NCBI GenBank assembly: GCA_016192705.1
Contig: JACPTQ010000036.1
Coordinates: forward strand, 1 to 50,526
Source of the DNA: Deltaproteobacteria bacterium
GTDB taxonomy: Bacteria > Myxococcota > JACPTQ01
Direction of reading: 5' to 3'
DNA: 50,526 nt
The position numbers were made by a program, and so were the translations under genes. Every line of letters starts with the position of its first letter. Position 1 is the stretch's first letter. The notes under the pieces were generated by a model that saw nothing but the letters and a program-made list of their open reading frames with translations, ran no database searches and was not told the origin of the DNA. Below, one piece after another: positions 15,747-45,890 of the stretch.

Positions 15747-18700
15747 CTACGACTCCGCGGAAACCGCGCGCACGTCCTTGGTTTCCGCGCGTGCCGCCCC
15801 ACGTCCGCGCGCCGCGACCGCCGCAAGAAGTGGCGCAAGGTAGCGCCCCGTGTGGCTTCCCACGACACCCACAACGGCCTCTGGCGTCCCCTCGGCGACG
15901 ACGAAACCACCCGCGTCACCCGCGTCGGGACCGAGGTCGATGACGTGGTCGGCAACCTTAATGACGTCGAGGTTGTGCTCAATGACGATGACCGCGTTCC
16001 CGGCGTCCGCAAGGCGATGAAGGATGACGACAAGCTTTTCGACGTCCGCCAGATGAAGCCCCGTCGTTGGCTCGTCAAGAATGTAGACCGTGTCTCCCTG
16101 CGCGCGCTGACAAAGCTCGGCCGCAAGCTTCACGCGCTGCGCCTCGCCGCCCGAGAGCGTCACGGCGCTTTGACCAAGCCGCATATACCCAAGCCCCACG
16201 TCGACGAGCGTGTCGAGAATGCGCGCGATGCGCCGGTGCGCCGCGAAAAAATCACGCGCCACCGCGACCTCCATGTCGAGCAGATCGGCGATCGATTTCC
16301 CGCGATAAGCCACGGCGAGCGTTTCGTCGTTGTAACGCCGCCCGCGACACCCCTCGCACGTCACCCACACATCCGACAAAAAGTGCATCTCGATGAGGTT
16401 CGCGCCGTAACCGTTGCACGCTGCGCACTGCCCGGCGTAGCTGTTGAATGAGAAGCGCCCCTTGTCGTACCCACGCACCTTCGCTTCGCGCGTGCGGGCG
16501 AAAACGTCGCGAACGAGGTCGAAGAGGCCGGTGTACGTCGCCGTGTTGGAGGTCGGCGAGCGCCCGAGCGGCGACTGGTCGATCGCGACGACCTTGCGAA
16601 GTGCCTTGTCCCGCTTGAACGCGTCGTGCGGGCCGACCCGTTCGCCGCCCAGCGGAATCCGCAAACTCTGCATCAGCGCACGCGCGACAGTATCGACGAC
16701 AAGCGTCGATTTGCCCGAACCAGAAACGCCCGTCACGCACGTGATCGCTCCGCGACGAAATCCTGCCGCGACGCGTTTCAGGTTGTTTGCGCACGCGCCT
16801 TTCACGGCAAGGCCCGGCTTCCCCTTCCGTCGCACCGCGGGAATCGGAATCGCGCGAATCCCCGATAAAAACTCCAAGGTCTGCGAACGCGGTGCCGACG
16901 CAAGCCCGCGTTGAAGGAGCGCGCACGCACCGGAGAAAACAACTTCGCCACCGCGATCGCCCGCCCCAGGACCAAGATCGATGAGGCGGTCGGCCTCGCG
17001 AATTGTCTGCAAGTCGTGCTCGACGACAACGACGGTATTCCCAAGGTCGCGCAACCCTTTGAGCGTCTCAAGCAGTCGCGCCGTGTCACGCGGATGGAGG
17101 CCCACGGTTGGCTCATCGAGGACATACAGACACCCCGTAAGCCCAAGTCCAACTTGCGTCGCGAGCCGGATCCGCTGCGCCTCGCCGCCCGAGAGCGTCG
17201 ACGCCGCGCGGTCGAGTGTCAGATACGCGAGCCCCGACGCAACGAGGAAATCGAGGCGCGAACGAATCTCGCGCAACACATCCGCAGCAATGGTCTCGCC
17301 CGTCGCGCCCAACTGGAGCGCACCCAGAAACGCCGCGGCCTCAGCCACGGTGAGGCGCGTGACATCAATGATGTGCTTGCCCGCGATCTTCACGGCGAGC
17401 GGCTCCGGGGCGAGGCGATCCCCGCGGCACGCGGCGCACACTTTCCCAAACCAATCAACGCCAAGCCCATCGCACGCGCGGCACGCACCGTGGTGAGAGT
17501 TAAACGAAAACGTGCGCGGGTGAATCTCGCCGCGTCGCTCAAGTCCGCAGGCAGCGCAGGAGAGCGTCTCCGTCAGCGCGATCGTTTTTTCGCCAACACG
17601 AAACACCGCGCGCCCCTTCGCAAGCCCGTACGCGGCCTCGAATCCCTCCGCGAGCCGCTTGCGCAACGTCGCATCAACGACGACGCGATCGATGACGAGA
17701 TCGATTTCGCGCCGAACCGCGCTCGGATGGCGACCCGCATCGGCGATCTCCATGGCGACGCCATCGACCACAACCCGCTCATACCCGGCCCGCTCAAACG
17801 CCGCGGCCCGCGAGAAAACCGCCCGCGCCGTTTCGAAAACCGCCGGCCGCCCCACGCGAAAAAGTGGCGCCGCCAACACTCCGCGCTCACCCGCGCAACG
17901 CTCAACCACAAACCGCGCCGCCGCCGATGGCGTATATGCCGCAAGCGGAACGTCGCACCGCACGCAATGCGGCGTTCCAACGCGCGCAAACAGGATGCGC
18001 AAGTAGTCGTAAACTTCGGTCGCCGTCGCGACGGTTGAACGCGGCGTGCGAGGCGCCGTTTTCTGATCGATGGCAATCGCGGGCGCGAGGCCGTCCAACC
18101 GGTCGACCGGCGCTTTGTCGAGGCGCCCCAAGAAACGCCGCGCATACGTCGACAGCGATTCCACGTACCGCCGCTGACCCTCCGAAAACAGCGTGTCAAA
18201 CGCGAGCGACGTTTTCCCCGACCCCGACACCCCCGTTACCACCGTCAGCGATCCCTCGGGAATGTCGACGTCGATCGCACGCAGATTGTGCTTCCGCGCC
18301 CCCCGCACGCGAATCCCGTGGTACGTCTCACCCGCTCCCGCATCCGCTCCCGCCCGCGCATCCGCATCCGCTCCCGCTTCCGATCCCGCAGCCGCACCCG
18401 CACCAGCTTCCTCCTTCCTATCGCCTTTTTCTTCTCCCTCCGATCTCTGTGCTCTCTGTGCCTCTGTGGTTACTCCCCTCTTCTCTTCTCTTCTCTTTTC
18501 CCCCAACACCCCTCGCAGCGCCCACCCCGTATGCGTTTCCGTCGCCGCGACTCCCTCCGGCGTCCCCTCGGCCACGACAAGCCCACCGCCCGCGCCGCCC
18601 TCCGGCCCCAAATCGATCACGTGGTCAGCCACCTTTACGACGTCCAAACTGTGCTCAATCACAATCACCGTGTTCCCGCGGTCCACGAGCCGCTGCAGCG

Positions 18701-21257
18701 CGTCCAAAAGGTGCGTGATGTCCGCCACGTGCAACCCCGTCGTCGGCTCGTCCAAGATGTAAAGCGTCTTCCCCGTCGCCGGCCGCCTGAGCTCGCTCGC
18801 AAGCTTCACGCGCTGCGCCTCGCCACCCGACAGCGTCGTCGATGGCTGCCCGAGCTCAACGTACCCGAGCCCAACGCTCGCCATCGCCTCCAGAATCGCC
18901 CGAATCTTTGGCAGATTCTCAAAGTGCGCCCGCGCGTCATCGACCGTCATCGCGAGCACGTCGCGAATGTTCTTTTCGCGAAACGCGATCTCGAGCGTCT
19001 CCGCGTTAAACCGCCGCCCCTCGCACGCGTCACACACGACCTCGACCGGCGCCAAAAACTGCAGCTCAATTTCATTCACGCCCGCGCCGCAACACTCCTC
19101 GCACCGCCCGCCCTTCACGTTGAACGAAAACCGCCCCTTCTTGTACCCGCGCGCACGCGACTCCGGCAGCGCCGCAAACAAGTCGCGGATCAAATCGAAG
19201 ACCTTCGTGTAGGTCGCCGGATTCGAACGCGGCGTGCGTCCAATCGGGCTTTGATCGATCTCAATCAGTTTGTCGACCTGCGCAACGCCGTCGACACCAT
19301 CCCACGGCACGCGTGGCGCCTCGCCGTCCGCATCGTCCGAATCGCAAAAGTCATCCCGCCGCCGCGCGAAACTCTGCTCGATCGCGCGACGCAAAACACC
19401 ATCGATGAGCGTCGACTTCCCCGACCCCGACACCCCCGTCACCGCAACGAACCGTCCGAGCGGAATCCGCACATCGATCGATTTGAGGTTGTGCATACGC
19501 GCGCCTCGCACCACGAGCGCCGCCTCCGCTCGCGGCCGCCGGATCGCCGGCACCGCGATCGCAAGCTCCCCGTTCAAGCACTTCGCCGTTACCGACTCCG
19601 TGGTTCCATCCACCGCATCCCGCTTCAACGCCAAGACGCCAAGGCGCGAAGGCACCGTAACAGAAGCATCCGGCCTTTGCGTCTCTGCGTCTTTGCGTTG
19701 GATATTCACCATCTCCGCTGGCGGCCCTGCGAACGTCACCCGTCCGCCGAGCTTCCCAGCGCCCGGCCCAATGTCGATCACATGATCCGCCGCGCGAATC
19801 GTGTCGAGGTCGTGCTCGACAACAACCACCGTGTTCCCCTGATCGCGCAGCCGTTTCAGCGTCGTGAGCAGCCGCTCGTTATCACGGTGATGCAGTCCAA
19901 TCGACGGCTCATCGAGCACATACAAAACCCCCCGAAGCCCCGACCCAACCTGCGCCGCGAGCCGAATCCGTTGCGCCTCGCCACCCGACAGGGTCGCCGC
20001 GCGCCGATCGATCGTGAGGTAGTCGAGCCCCACATTCATCAAGAAAGCGAGCCGGGTGCCGATCTCTTTGACGACAGCGCGCCCAATTGCCTCTTCACGT
20101 GCCGACATCGAAACACCGCCAAAAAACACCGCGCACTCGGCGATGGTCATCCCAACAACGTCAGCGATGTTTCGCTCCCGAAACGTCACCGCGAGCGCGT
20201 TGCGATTCAAGCGCCGCCCTTCGCACCGCTTGCAAACGCGCGGCTCCGCGCGCATGAACCGAAACGCCTCGGGTATCCCCTTGAGCCCCGCGTCCCACGT
20301 CAACCCAAGCCCGTTGCAGGACGCACATGCCCCCTGCGGCGCATTGAACGAAAAAAGCCGCGGCTCCATCTCAGCAACCGACCGCCCGCACTTTCGACAC
20401 GCCCGCGCCGTCGCGTAGGTCGTGGCCTCCGCTCCCGCTCCCGCCTCCGCCCCCGCTCCCGCCTCCGCTCCCGTAGTCCTACTCGTCGTCGTTGTCGTGC
20501 GCGTACTCGTCTTCGTGCTCGTATCTTTCCGCTCTTCTCTTACATTCACCACGCCGTTCGCCATCAAGAGCGCCTTCTCCACCGCCGCCGCAAGCCGCGC
20601 CGCGTCCTCCCGCGTCACGACCAACCGATCAACAACCACCTCGATCGTGTGTTTCTTGTACCGCTCGAGCGCAATCTCCTCGTCACCCCGCTCATCATCT
20701 AGGCGCCGCGCTACGCCATCGATCCGCACGCGCCAGTACCCGTCCGCCCGCAGATTCGCCAACTCCTCGCGGTACTCCCCCTTCCGGTCGCGCACAATCG
20801 GCGCAAGCACCTCGACCATTCGCCCCGCAAAATCGACCAGCAAGCGTTCCGTAACGTCGCCAGGGCTCCGCGCCTCGATCGGAACTCCACACTTCGGGCA
20901 GTGCGGTGTCCCAAGCCGCGCGAACAACAATCGCAAGTAGTCGTACACCTCGGTCATCGTGCCGACCGTCGACCGCGGGTTTCGCCCCGCCGTCTTTTGA
21001 TCGATGCAGAGCGTCGGCGACAGCCCATCGATGAGGTCCGCGGCCGGCTTCTCAATCAACCCCAGAAACTGCCGCGCGTACGGCGACAGAGACTCGACAA
21101 ATCGCCGATACCCCTCCTTATAGATGGTGTCGAACGCGAGCGAGCTTTTCCCTGACCCCGAAACCCCCGTGATAACCGTCAGGCTCTCGTGCGGGATAAC
21201 GACGTCGACCCCGCAGAGGTTGTGCTCGCGCGCACCACGGATGATGAGGTCACGCAT
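15747..21257 (-). CDS. uvrA: Double-length UvrA (two UvrA monomers fused)
   Basis: UvrA is the damage-sensing ATPase of nucleotide excision repair and works as a dimer. Here 1836 residues hold two complete UvrA units in one chain. Each unit has two Walker A motifs (GVSGSGKSSLAFDTIY and GVSGSGKSTLIDG; GVSGSGKTSLAFDT and GVSGSGKSTLVVD) and two LSGGEAQR signatures. Each also has an insertion zinc module with CxxC pairs (CPKCG, CRKCG...CASC; GRCEECCGAG...CDAC; their counterparts in unit 2). The dimer is therefore built in. Chlamydial UvrA is a known double-length case. Low-complexity Ala-Gly-Glu inserts lie in unit 1 and in the linker, and a palindromic insert lies at 19626-19700. I start at ATG 21257 (MRDLIIRGAREHNL), the normal UvrA beginning, rather than GTG 21287. 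Element A begins ~33 nt upstream. Confidence 0.95.
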   Translation of the reverse strand: MRDLIIRGAREHNLCGVDVVIPHESLTVITGVSGSGKSSLAFDTIYKEGYRRFVESLSPYARQFLGLIEKPAADLIDGLSPTLCIDQKTAGRNPRSTVGTMTEVYDYLRLLFARLGTPHCPKCGVPIEARSPGDVTERLLVDFAGRMVEVLAPIVRDRKGEYREELANLRADGYWRVRIDGVARRLDDERGDEEIALERYKKHTIEVVVDRLVVTREDAARLAAAVEKALLMANGVVNVREERKDTSTKTSTRTTTTTSRTTGAEAGAGAEAGAGAEATTYATARACRKCGRSVAEMEPRLFSFNAPQGACASCNGLGLTWDAGLKGIPEAFRFMRAEPRVCKRCEGRRLNRNALAVTFRERNIADVVGMTIAECAVFFGGVSMSAREEAIGRAVVKEIGTRLAFLMNVGLDYLTIDRRAATLSGGEAQRIRLAAQVGSGLRGVLYVLDEPSIGLHHRDNERLLTTLKRLRDQGNTVVVVEHDLDTIRAADHVIDIGPGAGKLGGRVTFAGPPAEMVNIQRKDAETQRPDASVTVPSRLGVLALKRDAVDGTTESVTAKCLNGELAIAVPAIRRPRAEAALVVRGARMHNLKSIDVRIPLGRFVAVTGVSGSGKSTLIDGVLRRAIEQSFARRRDDFCDSDDADGEAPRVPWDGVDGVAQVDKLIEIDQSPIGRTPRSNPATYTKVFDLIRDLFAALPESRARGYKKGRFSFNVKGGRCEECCGAGVNEIELQFLAPVEVVCDACEGRRFNAETLEIAFREKNIRDVLAMTVDDARAHFENLPKIRAILEAMASVGLGYVELGQPSTTLSGGEAQRVKLASELRRPATGKTLYILDEPTTGLHVADITHLLDALQRLVDRGNTVIVIEHSLDVVKVADHVIDLGPEGGAGGGLVVAEGTPEGVAATETHTGWALRGVLGEKRREEKRGVTTEAQRAQRSEGEEKGDRKEEAGAGAAAGSEAGADADARAGADAGAGETYHGIRVRGARKHNLRAIDVDIPEGSLTVVTGVSGSGKTSLAFDTLFSEGQRRYVESLSTYARRFLGRLDKAPVDRLDGLAPAIAIDQKTAPRTPRSTVATATEVYDYLRILFARVGTPHCVRCDVPLAAYTPSAAARFVVERCAGERGVLAAPLFRVGRPAVFETARAVFSRAAAFERAGYERVVVDGVAMEIADAGRHPSAVRREIDLVIDRVVVDATLRKRLAEGFEAAYGLAKGRAVFRVGEKTIALTETLSCAACGLERRGEIHPRTFSFNSHHGACRACDGLGVDWFGKVCAACRGDRLAPEPLAVKIAGKHIIDVTRLTVAEAAAFLGALQLGATGETIAADVLREIRSRLDFLVASGLAYLTLDRAASTLSGGEAQRIRLATQVGLGLTGCLYVLDEPTVGLHPRDTARLLETLKGLRDLGNTVVVVEHDLQTIREADRLIDLGPGAGDRGGEVVFSGACALLQRGLASAPRSQTLEFLSGIRAIPIPAVRRKGKPGLAVKGACANNLKRVAAGFRRGAITCVTGVSGSGKSTLVVDTVARALMQSLRIPLGGERVGPHDAFKRDKALRKVVAIDQSPLGRSPTSNTATYTGLFDLVRDVFARTREAKVRGYDKGRFSFNSYAGQCAACNGYGANLIEMHFLSDVWVTCEGCRGRRYNDETLAVAYRGKSIADLLDMEVAVARDFFAAHRRIARILDTLVDVGLGYMRLGQSAVTLSGGEAQRVKLAAELCQRAQGDTVYILDEPTTGLHLADVEKLVVILHRLADAGNAVIVIEHNLDVIKVADHVIDLGPDAGDAGGFVVAEGTPEAVVGVVGSHTGRYLAPLLAAVAARGRGAARAETKDVRAVSAES
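18331..18412 (-). repeat. GCGGNN hexanucleotide repeat in the UvrA linker
   Basis: Degenerate hexamers, read on the coding strand as GCG followed by GGN, GAN or GCN, encode an alternating Ala-Gly/Asp/Glu tract in the linker between the two UvrA halves. The tract lies between the second ABC domain of unit 1 and the first of unit 2, where a flexible tether is needed. The same type of tract recurs at 20431-20472 and in meaB (47591-47652). Confidence 0.75.
18444..18502 (-). repeat. CTCTGTG-type repeat plus polypyrimidine run inside the UvrA linker
   Basis: The plus strand reads ctctgtgctctctgtgcc, then tctgtggtt and a run of ttctc pentamers. The coding strand gives VTTEAQRAQRSEGEEKGDR. This wording resembles a short repeat that I have met in intergenic DNA of many bacterial phyla. 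It has been absorbed in frame into the linker. Only one arm is visible, with no complementary arm nearby. Confidence 0.5.
19626..19700 (-). repeat. Palindromic repeat element inserted in frame in uvrA
   Basis: The arms 19626-19653 and 19673-19700 are 28 nt each, match at 23 of 28 positions when one is reverse-complemented, and enclose a 19-nt loop. In protein terms the element adds QRKDAETQRPDASVTVPSRL and the following residues between the nucleotide-binding domains of the first UvrA unit, where ordinary UvrA proteins have no such segment. The frame is kept open. It recalls the Rickettsia palindromic elements that also enter genes in frame. Confidence 0.7.
20431..20472 (-). repeat. GCGGNN hexanucleotide repeat in UvrA unit 1
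   Basis: Seven hexamers encode AEAGAGAEAGAGAEA, next to a Thr/Ser/Arg-rich stretch. The tract sits before the zinc module that starts CRKCG. It is in frame and the flanking UvrA sequence is intact, so it is tolerated in a surface loop. Confidence 0.75.
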
Positions 21258-21299
21258 ATCGCCAAGTCTCTTGGATTTCGACCGCACCCGTCAAGATGC

Positions 21300-21930
21300 C
21301 TCGATCCCCGGAGAAGCAGCCAGTTCTCTTCTGTGCGTAGGGTCGGCAGGTGCCGCTTCGGCGCGCCGACGTCCTCGGGTCTGAACTAACCCGCACGACA
21401 GAGCCGCTGTTGAGAGGCAAGCGAAACCTTAGCGATTCCAACCGATACCGCGCTGCAGACCCTGCGCAAAGGTGGGGCTGCGGGCTCCGTTCCGTCGCCC
21501 TCGCCATTCCGCTCGCGCCGGCAAGCCGCTGGCTTGCCGACAGACTGCTCGCAGAATAGGCGCGCCTATGCGTGCCCCTGCCGACTCTACGCCAATCCGG
21601 GCTGACCGCTTCCCGGGGACATTTTTCTAAGGCTTGAGGGCGGTACGAAGGGTTCACCCGTTTGGTGTCGGCCAGCGTTCGATCGACCCCCAAGTCTCTC
21701 AACCGCCGTTCCAGGGAAACGGCTGGTTTCTGGTTGGGCGGATTGGGCAAGCGAAGGCTCGCGTCCGCAGGGGATGAGGTGCCGATGGGGCGCGGCATTG
21801 CCGCTCTCATGAGGTTTGATTCATTCTGTCCAGGCTCGCATCTAATGTCAGACCCGAGGACTTCCGCGAGCCGTAGCGAGCCCAAACCCGACCGCCCCAC
21901 GCAAATATTTCCCGTTATCCGGGAATCAGG
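21300..21930. mobile_element. MITE-like repeat element, copy A
   Basis: This fills the ~730-nt gap between uvrA and tRNA-Pro. The right end CCGGGAATCAGG (21919-21930) is the inverse of the family end CCTGATTCCCGG; the left end (ctcgatccccgg) is eroded. Subterminal inverted copies of GTCCTCGGGTCTGA are at 21371-21384 and 21848-21861. The flanks carry GTCAAGATGC (21290-21299) and GTCAAGACGC (21932-21941), a likely 10-bp target duplication with one change. About 365 nt (from ~21568) align well with copy B in reverse orientation. It is the longest of the three copies (~630 nt). No transposase is encoded; a minus-strand frame with shared wording exists but is probably not a gene. Confidence 0.7.
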
Positions 21931-21990
21931 GGTCAAGACGCAGTATCTCGACGCTGGCCTATGGGCGCGTGTATGCTGACACTCGAGAAT

Positions 21991-23100: not shown

Positions 23101-23186
23101 CCTGTAGCTCAGCAGGATAGAGCAAAGCAGGATAGAGCAACGGCCTTCTAAGCCGTAGGTTGGGCGTTCGAGTCGCCCCAGGCGCG
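23098..23186 (+). tRNA. tRNA-Arg (anticodon UCU) with duplicated D arm
   Basis: Acceptor GCGCCTG/CAGGCGC, anticodon stem ACGGC/GCCGT with loop CTTCTAA (anticodon TCT) and T stem GGGCG/CGCCC around TTCGAGT are all sound. However, AGCAGGATAGAGCAA occurs twice in exact tandem (23111-23125 and 23126-23140), giving 89 nt instead of 74. Removing either copy restores a perfect tRNA. The D stem GCTC can pair with either GAGC, leaving a 15-nt bulge in the D loop or between D and anticodon stems. It may be a processed functional variant, a pseudogene or a sequence error. CCA is not encoded. Confidence 0.8.
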
Positions 23187-39140: not shown

Positions 39141-39209
39141 GTGGTCGTCAGTATAGCGCACGGCTATGCGTCGCCGCCACGATACGAAAGGTCACTCAGC
39201 GGTCGCATT

Positions 39210-39760
39210 CCCTGATTCCCGGTTAACGGCCAAGACCAGCGTGGGGCGGTCGGGGTTGGGCTCGCTCCGGCTCGCGGAAGTCCTCGGGTCTGACATTAAA
39301 TGTGGGTCTGCGCGAAATGAATCAAACATCATGAGAACGGCAATCCCACGCCCCATCGGCACCTCATCCCCTGCGGACGCGACCCGGAGCAAGCCCAATC
39401 GCCGCCCGCCCAATCAGAACCTGGCCGTTTTCCTGGAACGGCGGCTAAGAGACTTGGGGGTCGATCGATCGTTAGCCGACAACCAGCGGGTGAACTCTTC
39501 GAACCGCCCGCAAGCCTAAGGAATGCCTCCCGGGTAAGCGGTTCGCCCGGATTAGCGTTGGGTCGGCTGGAGCACAGCGTCGGCGCGCCTCCGCAGGGTC
39601 TGGGGTGCCATGCCTGCATGAAATTGCGCCTATTCGCATATTCTCGTTAGTGCGGGTCGCGCACGCGTTAAAAGCCAGACCCGAGGACGTCGGCGCGCCA
39701 GAGCGGGATCCTGCCGACCCTCACGCTCACAAGCGAACGAACCGCTTATCCGGGAATCAG
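39210..39760. mobile_element. MITE-like repeat element, copy B (best preserved)
   Basis: This fills the gap between prkA and the divergent lipoprotein gene. The left end CCTGATTCCCGGTTAACGG is at 39211-39229. The right end, ending CCGGGAATCAG (39750-39760), is its inverse with CTTATCCGGG in place of GTTAACCGGG. The flanks are TCAGCGGTCGCATT at 39196-39209 and again at 39757-39770, a perfect direct repeat of at least 10 bp. Subterminal inverted copies of GTCCTCGGGTCTGA lie at 39280-39293 and (one change) 39675-39688. Read in reverse, it aligns with copies A and C. About 550 nt long, with no transposase. Confidence 0.8.
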
Positions 39761-39813
39761 CGGTCGCATTGTGCGCAAGCGGCGAAAAGCCGAAATGTGT
39801 TAAGTGAAGCCGG

Positions 39814-45518: not shown

Positions 45519-45541
45519 GATGATGCACCAATGTTATATCC

Positions 45542-45826
45542 CATTCCCCCGGTTAAGCGGTCCGTTCGCCCGTGAGCGTGAGGGTCGACAGGAGCCCGCT
45601 TCGGCGCGCCAACGTCCTCGGGTCTGATTTGAAACGTGCGAACGATCCGCGGGTCAGAGGCTCGCGAAAGCTCGGTGCCGATGGGGCGTGGAATTGCCGT
45701 TCTCATGATGTTTGATTGATTTCGTGCAGACTCACATTTCATGTCAGACCCGAGGACTTTCGCGAGCCGGAGCGAGCCCAAACCCGACCGCCCCATTCTG
45801 GTCTTGGCCGTTAACCGGGAATCAGG
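45542..45826. mobile_element. MITE-like repeat element, copy C (internally deleted)
   Basis: The element is 285 bp between sctV and the divergent reductase gene. The right end CCGTTAACCGGGAATCAGG (45808-45826) and left end (ATTCCCCCGGTTAAGCGG) are inverse to each other with small changes. Perfect 13-bp direct repeats CAATGTTATATCC flank it (45529-45541, 45827-45839), the best target duplication of the three. Inverted copies of GTCCTCGGGTCTGA lie at 45614-45627 and 45744-45757. Compared with copy B it lacks about 260 bp of the middle. Confidence 0.8.
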
Positions 45827-45890
45827 CAATGTTATATCCATCATCGGCCGACAACGCTGCGATGCTAGTCGACCAATGCGGAGGGTGCAA

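Follow-up and report, generated by a model that had tools for sequence, protein, structure and literature searches.

A probable MITE-like family of non-autonomous elements dispersed through the genome of a Deltaproteobacteria bacterium

Three related elements with inverted ends lie within a 50,526-nucleotide stretch of DNA from a Deltaproteobacteria bacterium (hereafter, the window, meaning the whole stretch analyzed), and they raise the question of what kind of element this is and how it came to be spread. The original prediction described a three-copy, possibly undescribed MITE family with long target duplications, encoding no transposase, with an IS4-like enzyme as the first suspect for its movement. 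Copy B, of the ~550-bp class, occupies positions 39210..39760 of the forward strand (CCCTGATTCCCGG ... CCGGGAATCAG) and is flanked on the left (39200..39209) and on the right (39761..39770) by the 10-bp target-site duplication CGGTCGCATT. Its left inner repeat, GTCCTCGGGTCTGA (39280..39293, +; core block L14), pairs in a predicted left arm with core block 2, CACCTCATCCCCTGCGGA (39360..39377, +), and core block 3, TCCGCAGGGTCTG (39590..39602, +), pairs in a predicted right arm with the right inner repeat, CCAGACCCGAGGAC (39675..39688, +; core block R14). Copy A, a long variant, is oriented the other way (21300..21931, -), with flanks GTCAAGATGC (21290-21299) and GTCAAGACGC (21932-21941) that match over 10 bp with one mismatch, inner repeats at 21371..21384 (-) and 21848..21861 (-), and a palindromic cassette of ~91 bp at the second of two mirror sites (21467..21557, -). 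Copy C is a short variant without the middle of the element (45542..45826, -), flanked on both sides by an exact 13-bp repeat, CAATGTTATATCC (45529-45541 and 45827-45839), with inner repeats at 45614..45627 (-) and 45744..45757 (-).

Copies A and C carry the inner repeat, GTCCTCGGGTCTGA/TCAGACCCGAGGAC, without any change, and the right one of copy B differs from the family form by one base. The three copies and the inner inverted repeat were all found in the window where they had been predicted. The flanking repeats were likewise as described for copies A and C; that of copy B is 10 bp and not up to 14 bp, the longer value including four bases, TCAG, that belong to the right end of the element itself.

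The genome assembly comprises 5.21 Mb in 88 contigs with an estimated completeness of 96.65%, and genome searches covered all of these other than two short contigs that read as N (C18 and C59); the stretches sampled comprised the starts of contigs, the surroundings of copies, and a single sample of 400 kb. A blastn search of copy B against its own genome returned at least 58 matches, representing ~40 distinct copies with 79-100% identity, where 40 of 236 candidates were scored in a first look. The inner 14-mer TCAGACCCGAGGAC, allowing at most one mismatch, occurred 256 times genome-wide (123 + 133), whereas its reversed control occurred 0 times, implying a family of ~128 copies or more. This number is probably too low because contigs break inside copies: in one survey 16 of 62 checked contig starts fell in a copy, in addition to many found earlier, and several contig ends have in common exact 141-bp overlaps that lie inside copies. 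We collected 69 complete copies. The family is thus far larger than the three copies in the window had suggested. Identity to the nearest relative had a median of 91% and a maximum of 93.8%; since identical copies would break the assembly, young copies may be hidden. On one contig (C9:127500-134500), three separate copies were found within ~3.3 kb with genes in between.

Comparison of the 69 complete copies reveals a common class of ~550 bp (38 of 69) with an inner span of 400-410 bp. The outer inverted ends CCTGATTCCCGG / CCGGGAATCAGG, or the variants CCCAATCCCCGG and CTCGATCCCCGG, are present in nearly all of them, and the 14-bp inner repeat lies ~72 bp in from these ends; each end, as judged by eye, is repeated further in, inverted and diverged. 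The predicted fold of the element has two self-complementary arms, which the outer ends close. The element comprises three modules (consensus positions 1-168, 170-383, and 385-552), and the two junction sites between them are inverted copies of each other. In some copies a ~90-bp palindromic cassette is present, in one orientation at the second site and in the opposite orientation at the first, and some cassettes hold further nested pieces. In short copies such as copy C the middle of the element is gone. The spacing between paired inner 14-mers varies (113-743 bp), with the longest complete copy at or below ~890 bp. The GC content of the element (61-63%) is like that of the genome.

The element encodes no protein, as had been predicted for a transposase. 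Divergence over the interior was similar at the three codon positions (0.086/0.098/0.090), indicating no codon periodicity, and a Pfam search of the element reading frames gave no match, and on these grounds a coding element was rejected. An open frame of 228 codons that spans all of copy A (21250-21936, -) has no coding sign. Screening of copy B for terminators and promoters identified none beyond those in shuffled sequences.

The flanks of the copies bear directly on how the family was spread. Flanking direct repeats that match exactly over 8 bp or more (8-14 bp) were identified at 43 of 65 copies, compared to 0 of 500 control trials in which the flanks of different copies were paired. Perfect 8-bp flank pairs were found at 41 of the 65 copies (1 of 300 controls), and 8-bp pairs with at most one mismatch at 54 (5 of 300 controls). 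These frequencies, far above those of controls, show that the copies are transposition products. Neither outcome named as refuting the prediction, an absence of further copies or a lack of flanking repeats in most copies, was observed. Exact duplications were most commonly 8 bp (17 copies), followed by 10 bp (8 copies), 12-14 bp (8 copies), 9 bp (6 copies), and 11 bp (4 copies). This spread in length looks real, since a fixed 8-bp duplication with chance extension would yield fewer duplications of at least 10 bp. The duplicated targets had a GC content of 47%, compared to 57% in the near flanks and 62% in a genome sample.

Placement of the copies was evaluated with a simple, crude reading-frame caller after rebuilding the empty site, and 65 copies were scorable. 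Of these, 47 were intergenic and 18 were inside a called frame, many near the frame end; some of the latter may disrupt genes or reflect miscalled starts. The 47 intergenic copies were in gaps between divergent (26) or tandem (21) genes and never between convergent genes (0), whereas gaps in the 400-kb sample were 57 divergent, 165 tandem, and 57 convergent (33/52/15% by intergenic length; p ~7e-4 for the comparison by length). The element thus likely prefers positions upstream of genes, as judged with a crude caller and a sample from element-poor contig middles. Copies A, B, and C each lie between divergent neighbors, these being a UvrA-like gene and a tRNA-Pro gene for copy A, a PrkA-like gene and an NHL-repeat gene for copy B, and an FHIPEP gene and an oxidoreductase gene for copy C. 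With 1846 aa, the UvrA-like protein (15747-21287, -) is roughly double the normal size, and two stretches of it match the UvrA interaction domain. A weak partial tRNA match at 23121-23178 (+; Rfam, 33 bits), with no ARAGORN call, is possibly a tRNA remnant.

Beyond its own genome, the family was not found in the collections searched. Among 195 genomes of the phylum, which included no other member of the same genus, family, or class, the element was found in its own genome and the other 194 gave only chance matches of 32-36 bp. Across 84,980 species genomes, the exact core 17-mer had 16 isolated matches; each lacked a proper partner repeat, and their number does not exceed that expected by chance for 257 billion bases. 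No match was found among the plasmids searched, and the viral contigs searched had one isolated match that was without a proper partner repeat. Rfam covariance models gave no match that reached the gathering score; the best had an E of 0.18 and fell far short of its cut-off. With no match in these sequence collections or in Rfam, and no description in the literature searched, the proposal that the family was undescribed was upheld.

Collectively, these observations make it probable that the elements constitute an old, genome-specific, MITE-like family of non-autonomous DNA elements whose spread depended on a transposase supplied in trans. This reading is based on the number of copies, their inverted ends and 8-14 bp duplications, the absence of coding, the AT-richer targets, the intergenic bias, the presence or absence of cassettes, and the internal deletion. 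In this scenario, a transposase making a staggered cut of ~8-10 bp would have attached to the ends, cut out or copied the element, and inserted it elsewhere; the transposase gene would have resided on an autonomous relative that has since been lost or has decayed, or that the assembly does not contain. The copies would then have diversified through internal deletion, gain of ~90-bp palindromic cassettes at the two mirror sites, and point change while the four-block core was kept. Three observations run against this explanation. The 18 of 65 scored copies in called frames are one, and a duplication length looser than most DDE enzymes give is another. The third is that the sequence examined around contig ends and unpaired inner repeats contained no autonomous relative with matching ends, so that the search for a transposase gene bounded by such ends yielded no candidate, and that five transposase domains are absent from the assembly. 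The IS4-type domain DDE_Tnp_1 (PF01609) had 0 matches, with the positive control detected in 9 of 14 genomes, and the Transposase_mut (IS256), Y1_Tnp (IS200/RAYT), IS66, and rve domains were likewise absent from the assembly, with positive controls that worked in other genomes. IS256, Y1/RAYT, IS66, and rve enzymes were rejected as the mobilizer on this basis. However, because the assembly breaks at repeats, a multi-copy transposase element may be missed by domain searches.

It is conceivable, as a special case of this explanation although not what we would most expect, that an autonomous parent is still present in the organism and is missing from the data because its near-identical copies broke the assembly or were left unbinned. 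The 141-bp overlaps inside copies common to several contig ends, the frequency of contig starts in copies, the incomplete assembly, and the two short contigs outside the search are all consistent with a hidden parent. However, those contig ends that carry longer element stretches hold only the known modules and cassettes, and no gene. Other repeats at contig ends (L214/L249 and L225/L230/L242) are ~77-89% alike over 0.6-1 kb, and their frames, as judged by eye, have the look of lipoproteins and RCC1-like repeat proteins and not of transposases.

A competing explanation, which we consider rather unlikely, is that the copies are functional host elements under selection, whether as structured RNAs or as double-stranded sites for protein binding, that were spread once by transposition and are now used near promoters. 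This possibility arises from the core, defined as four blocks (the left 14-mer, CACCTCATCCCCTGCGGA, TCCGCAGGGTCTG, and the right 13-mer) in 32 full-length copies from a whole-element search. The core had 7 changes among 1856 sites (0.4%), compared to 11.7% elsewhere in the element and 8.9% in the left outer end, and block 3, TCCGCAGGGTCTG, had no change in any of 38 full-length copies. The 8-bp duplications, 13 with one mismatch and 41 perfect, correspond to a difference of ~4% between paired flanks, and this ratio suggests a post-insertion change of ~2% per copy. A change of 1.5-2% per copy predicts 28-35 changes in the core, where 7 were observed. The core has thus changed less than would follow from the decay of the flanks, a hint that some function has been retained. 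This estimate is nevertheless derived from few sites, and the core blocks were picked post hoc.

Evidence from folding is similarly divided. In the predicted arms the four core blocks base-pair among themselves, folding energies are far under those of shuffled sequences (z ~ -8), and 16 pairs showed compensating changes compared to 6.5 in shuffles (0 of 500). The excess of copies upstream of genes would also be expected if the host made use of them. However, stable folding is expected of any element built from inverted repeats, covariation is inflated by sequence relatedness, and the consensus folds from the forward and reverse strands differ. Since these disagree, no strand could be chosen, and a single RNA fold derived from covariation was rejected. 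The lack of an Rfam match and the existence of short copies, such as copy C, without the element middle also argue against selection on host function.

A real function of the core is doubtful. If the core was kept, the likeliest reason may be a protein-binding site or a folded RNA or DNA arm, and it may have been needed first for mobility and perhaps be used now by the host near promoters. In its fullest form, which we regard as unlikely, such a function would make the family a transposon-spread network of ~128 or more structured copies, often near promoters and each selected after insertion, with a core that is bound by a host protein or that forms an RNA or DNA arm, in a genome without the five tested transposase types and with cassettes gained at two mirror sites.

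Duplications of 10-13 bp fall in the known range of IS4-group elements, and it was on this ground that an IS4-like transposase had been suspected. Such lengths are indeed found at copies B and C and at about one quarter of copies. However, that an IS4-type (DDE_Tnp_1) transposase moved the family now appears improbable, because PF01609 is absent from the assembly despite a working control, and because the duplications have a mode of 8 bp and a spread to 14 bp and are not fixed at 10-13 bp. We set aside as very improbable the idea that these are REPIN-like repeats, with two inverted short motifs at variable spacing, moved by a REP-associated tyrosine (Y1) transposase: the two hyperconserved inverted 14-mers, spaced 113-743 bp apart in intergenic DNA and with more than 200 motif copies, resemble such repeats, but the Y1_Tnp domain is lacking in the genome and the element has long outer inverted repeats and target duplications, the latter of which, to our knowledge, REP elements do not make.

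The MITE-like reading can be evaluated against families already described. The element has the inverted ends, target duplications, and lack of an internal transposase gene that define a MITE, and it falls within that definition except for a resident parent. It departs from the usual, if not strictly defining, traits of AT-richness and small size (GC 61-63%, ~550 bp), and YPAL is likewise not AT-rich among MITE-type repeats (PMC2229807). BOX of Streptococcus pneumoniae, at 67-637 bp and with 125 copies in the strain studied, is likewise an interspersed repeat built of modules, and it shares the inverted ends, the target duplications, and the strong predicted folding (PMC3049150). The likeness is one of layout; in the present element, which is usually ~550 bp and has genome-like GC, the modules take the form of ~90-bp palindromic cassettes placed at two mirror sites. 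CIR of Caulobacter and Brucella is intergenic and has two long inverted repeats that give two arms and a linker (PMC2229807); the present element has, in addition, target duplications of 8-14 bp and a structure closed by outer inverted ends. YPAL (RU-2) of Yersinia shares internal inverted repeats and variable-length target duplications, but it is 168 bp with duplications of 3-26 bp (PMC2229807), whereas the present element also has outer inverted ends. MITEAba12 of Acinetobacter, a non-autonomous element with inverted ends and 9-bp duplications kept by 40% of copies, is moved by ISAba12 (PMC6382973); it is 113 bp, AT-rich, and has a resident parent with matching ends, whereas no parent was found here. 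MITEAba12 thus illustrates how a parent is ordinarily identified. The families closest to the element in layout are BOX for its modules, CIR for its pair of arms, and YPAL for its loose duplications and its lack of AT-richness.

For the organism, the family accounts for the poor assembly of its genome. With ~128 copies of ~550 bp, or more than 1% of the genome, it would rank among the larger and longer MITE-like families known in a bacterium, and its layout would combine traits of separate families, namely the cassettes of BOX, the arms of CIR, and the loose duplications of YPAL. If the core is truly conserved after insertion, the family would offer a testable case of a mobile repeat that has turned into a regulatory or structural site.
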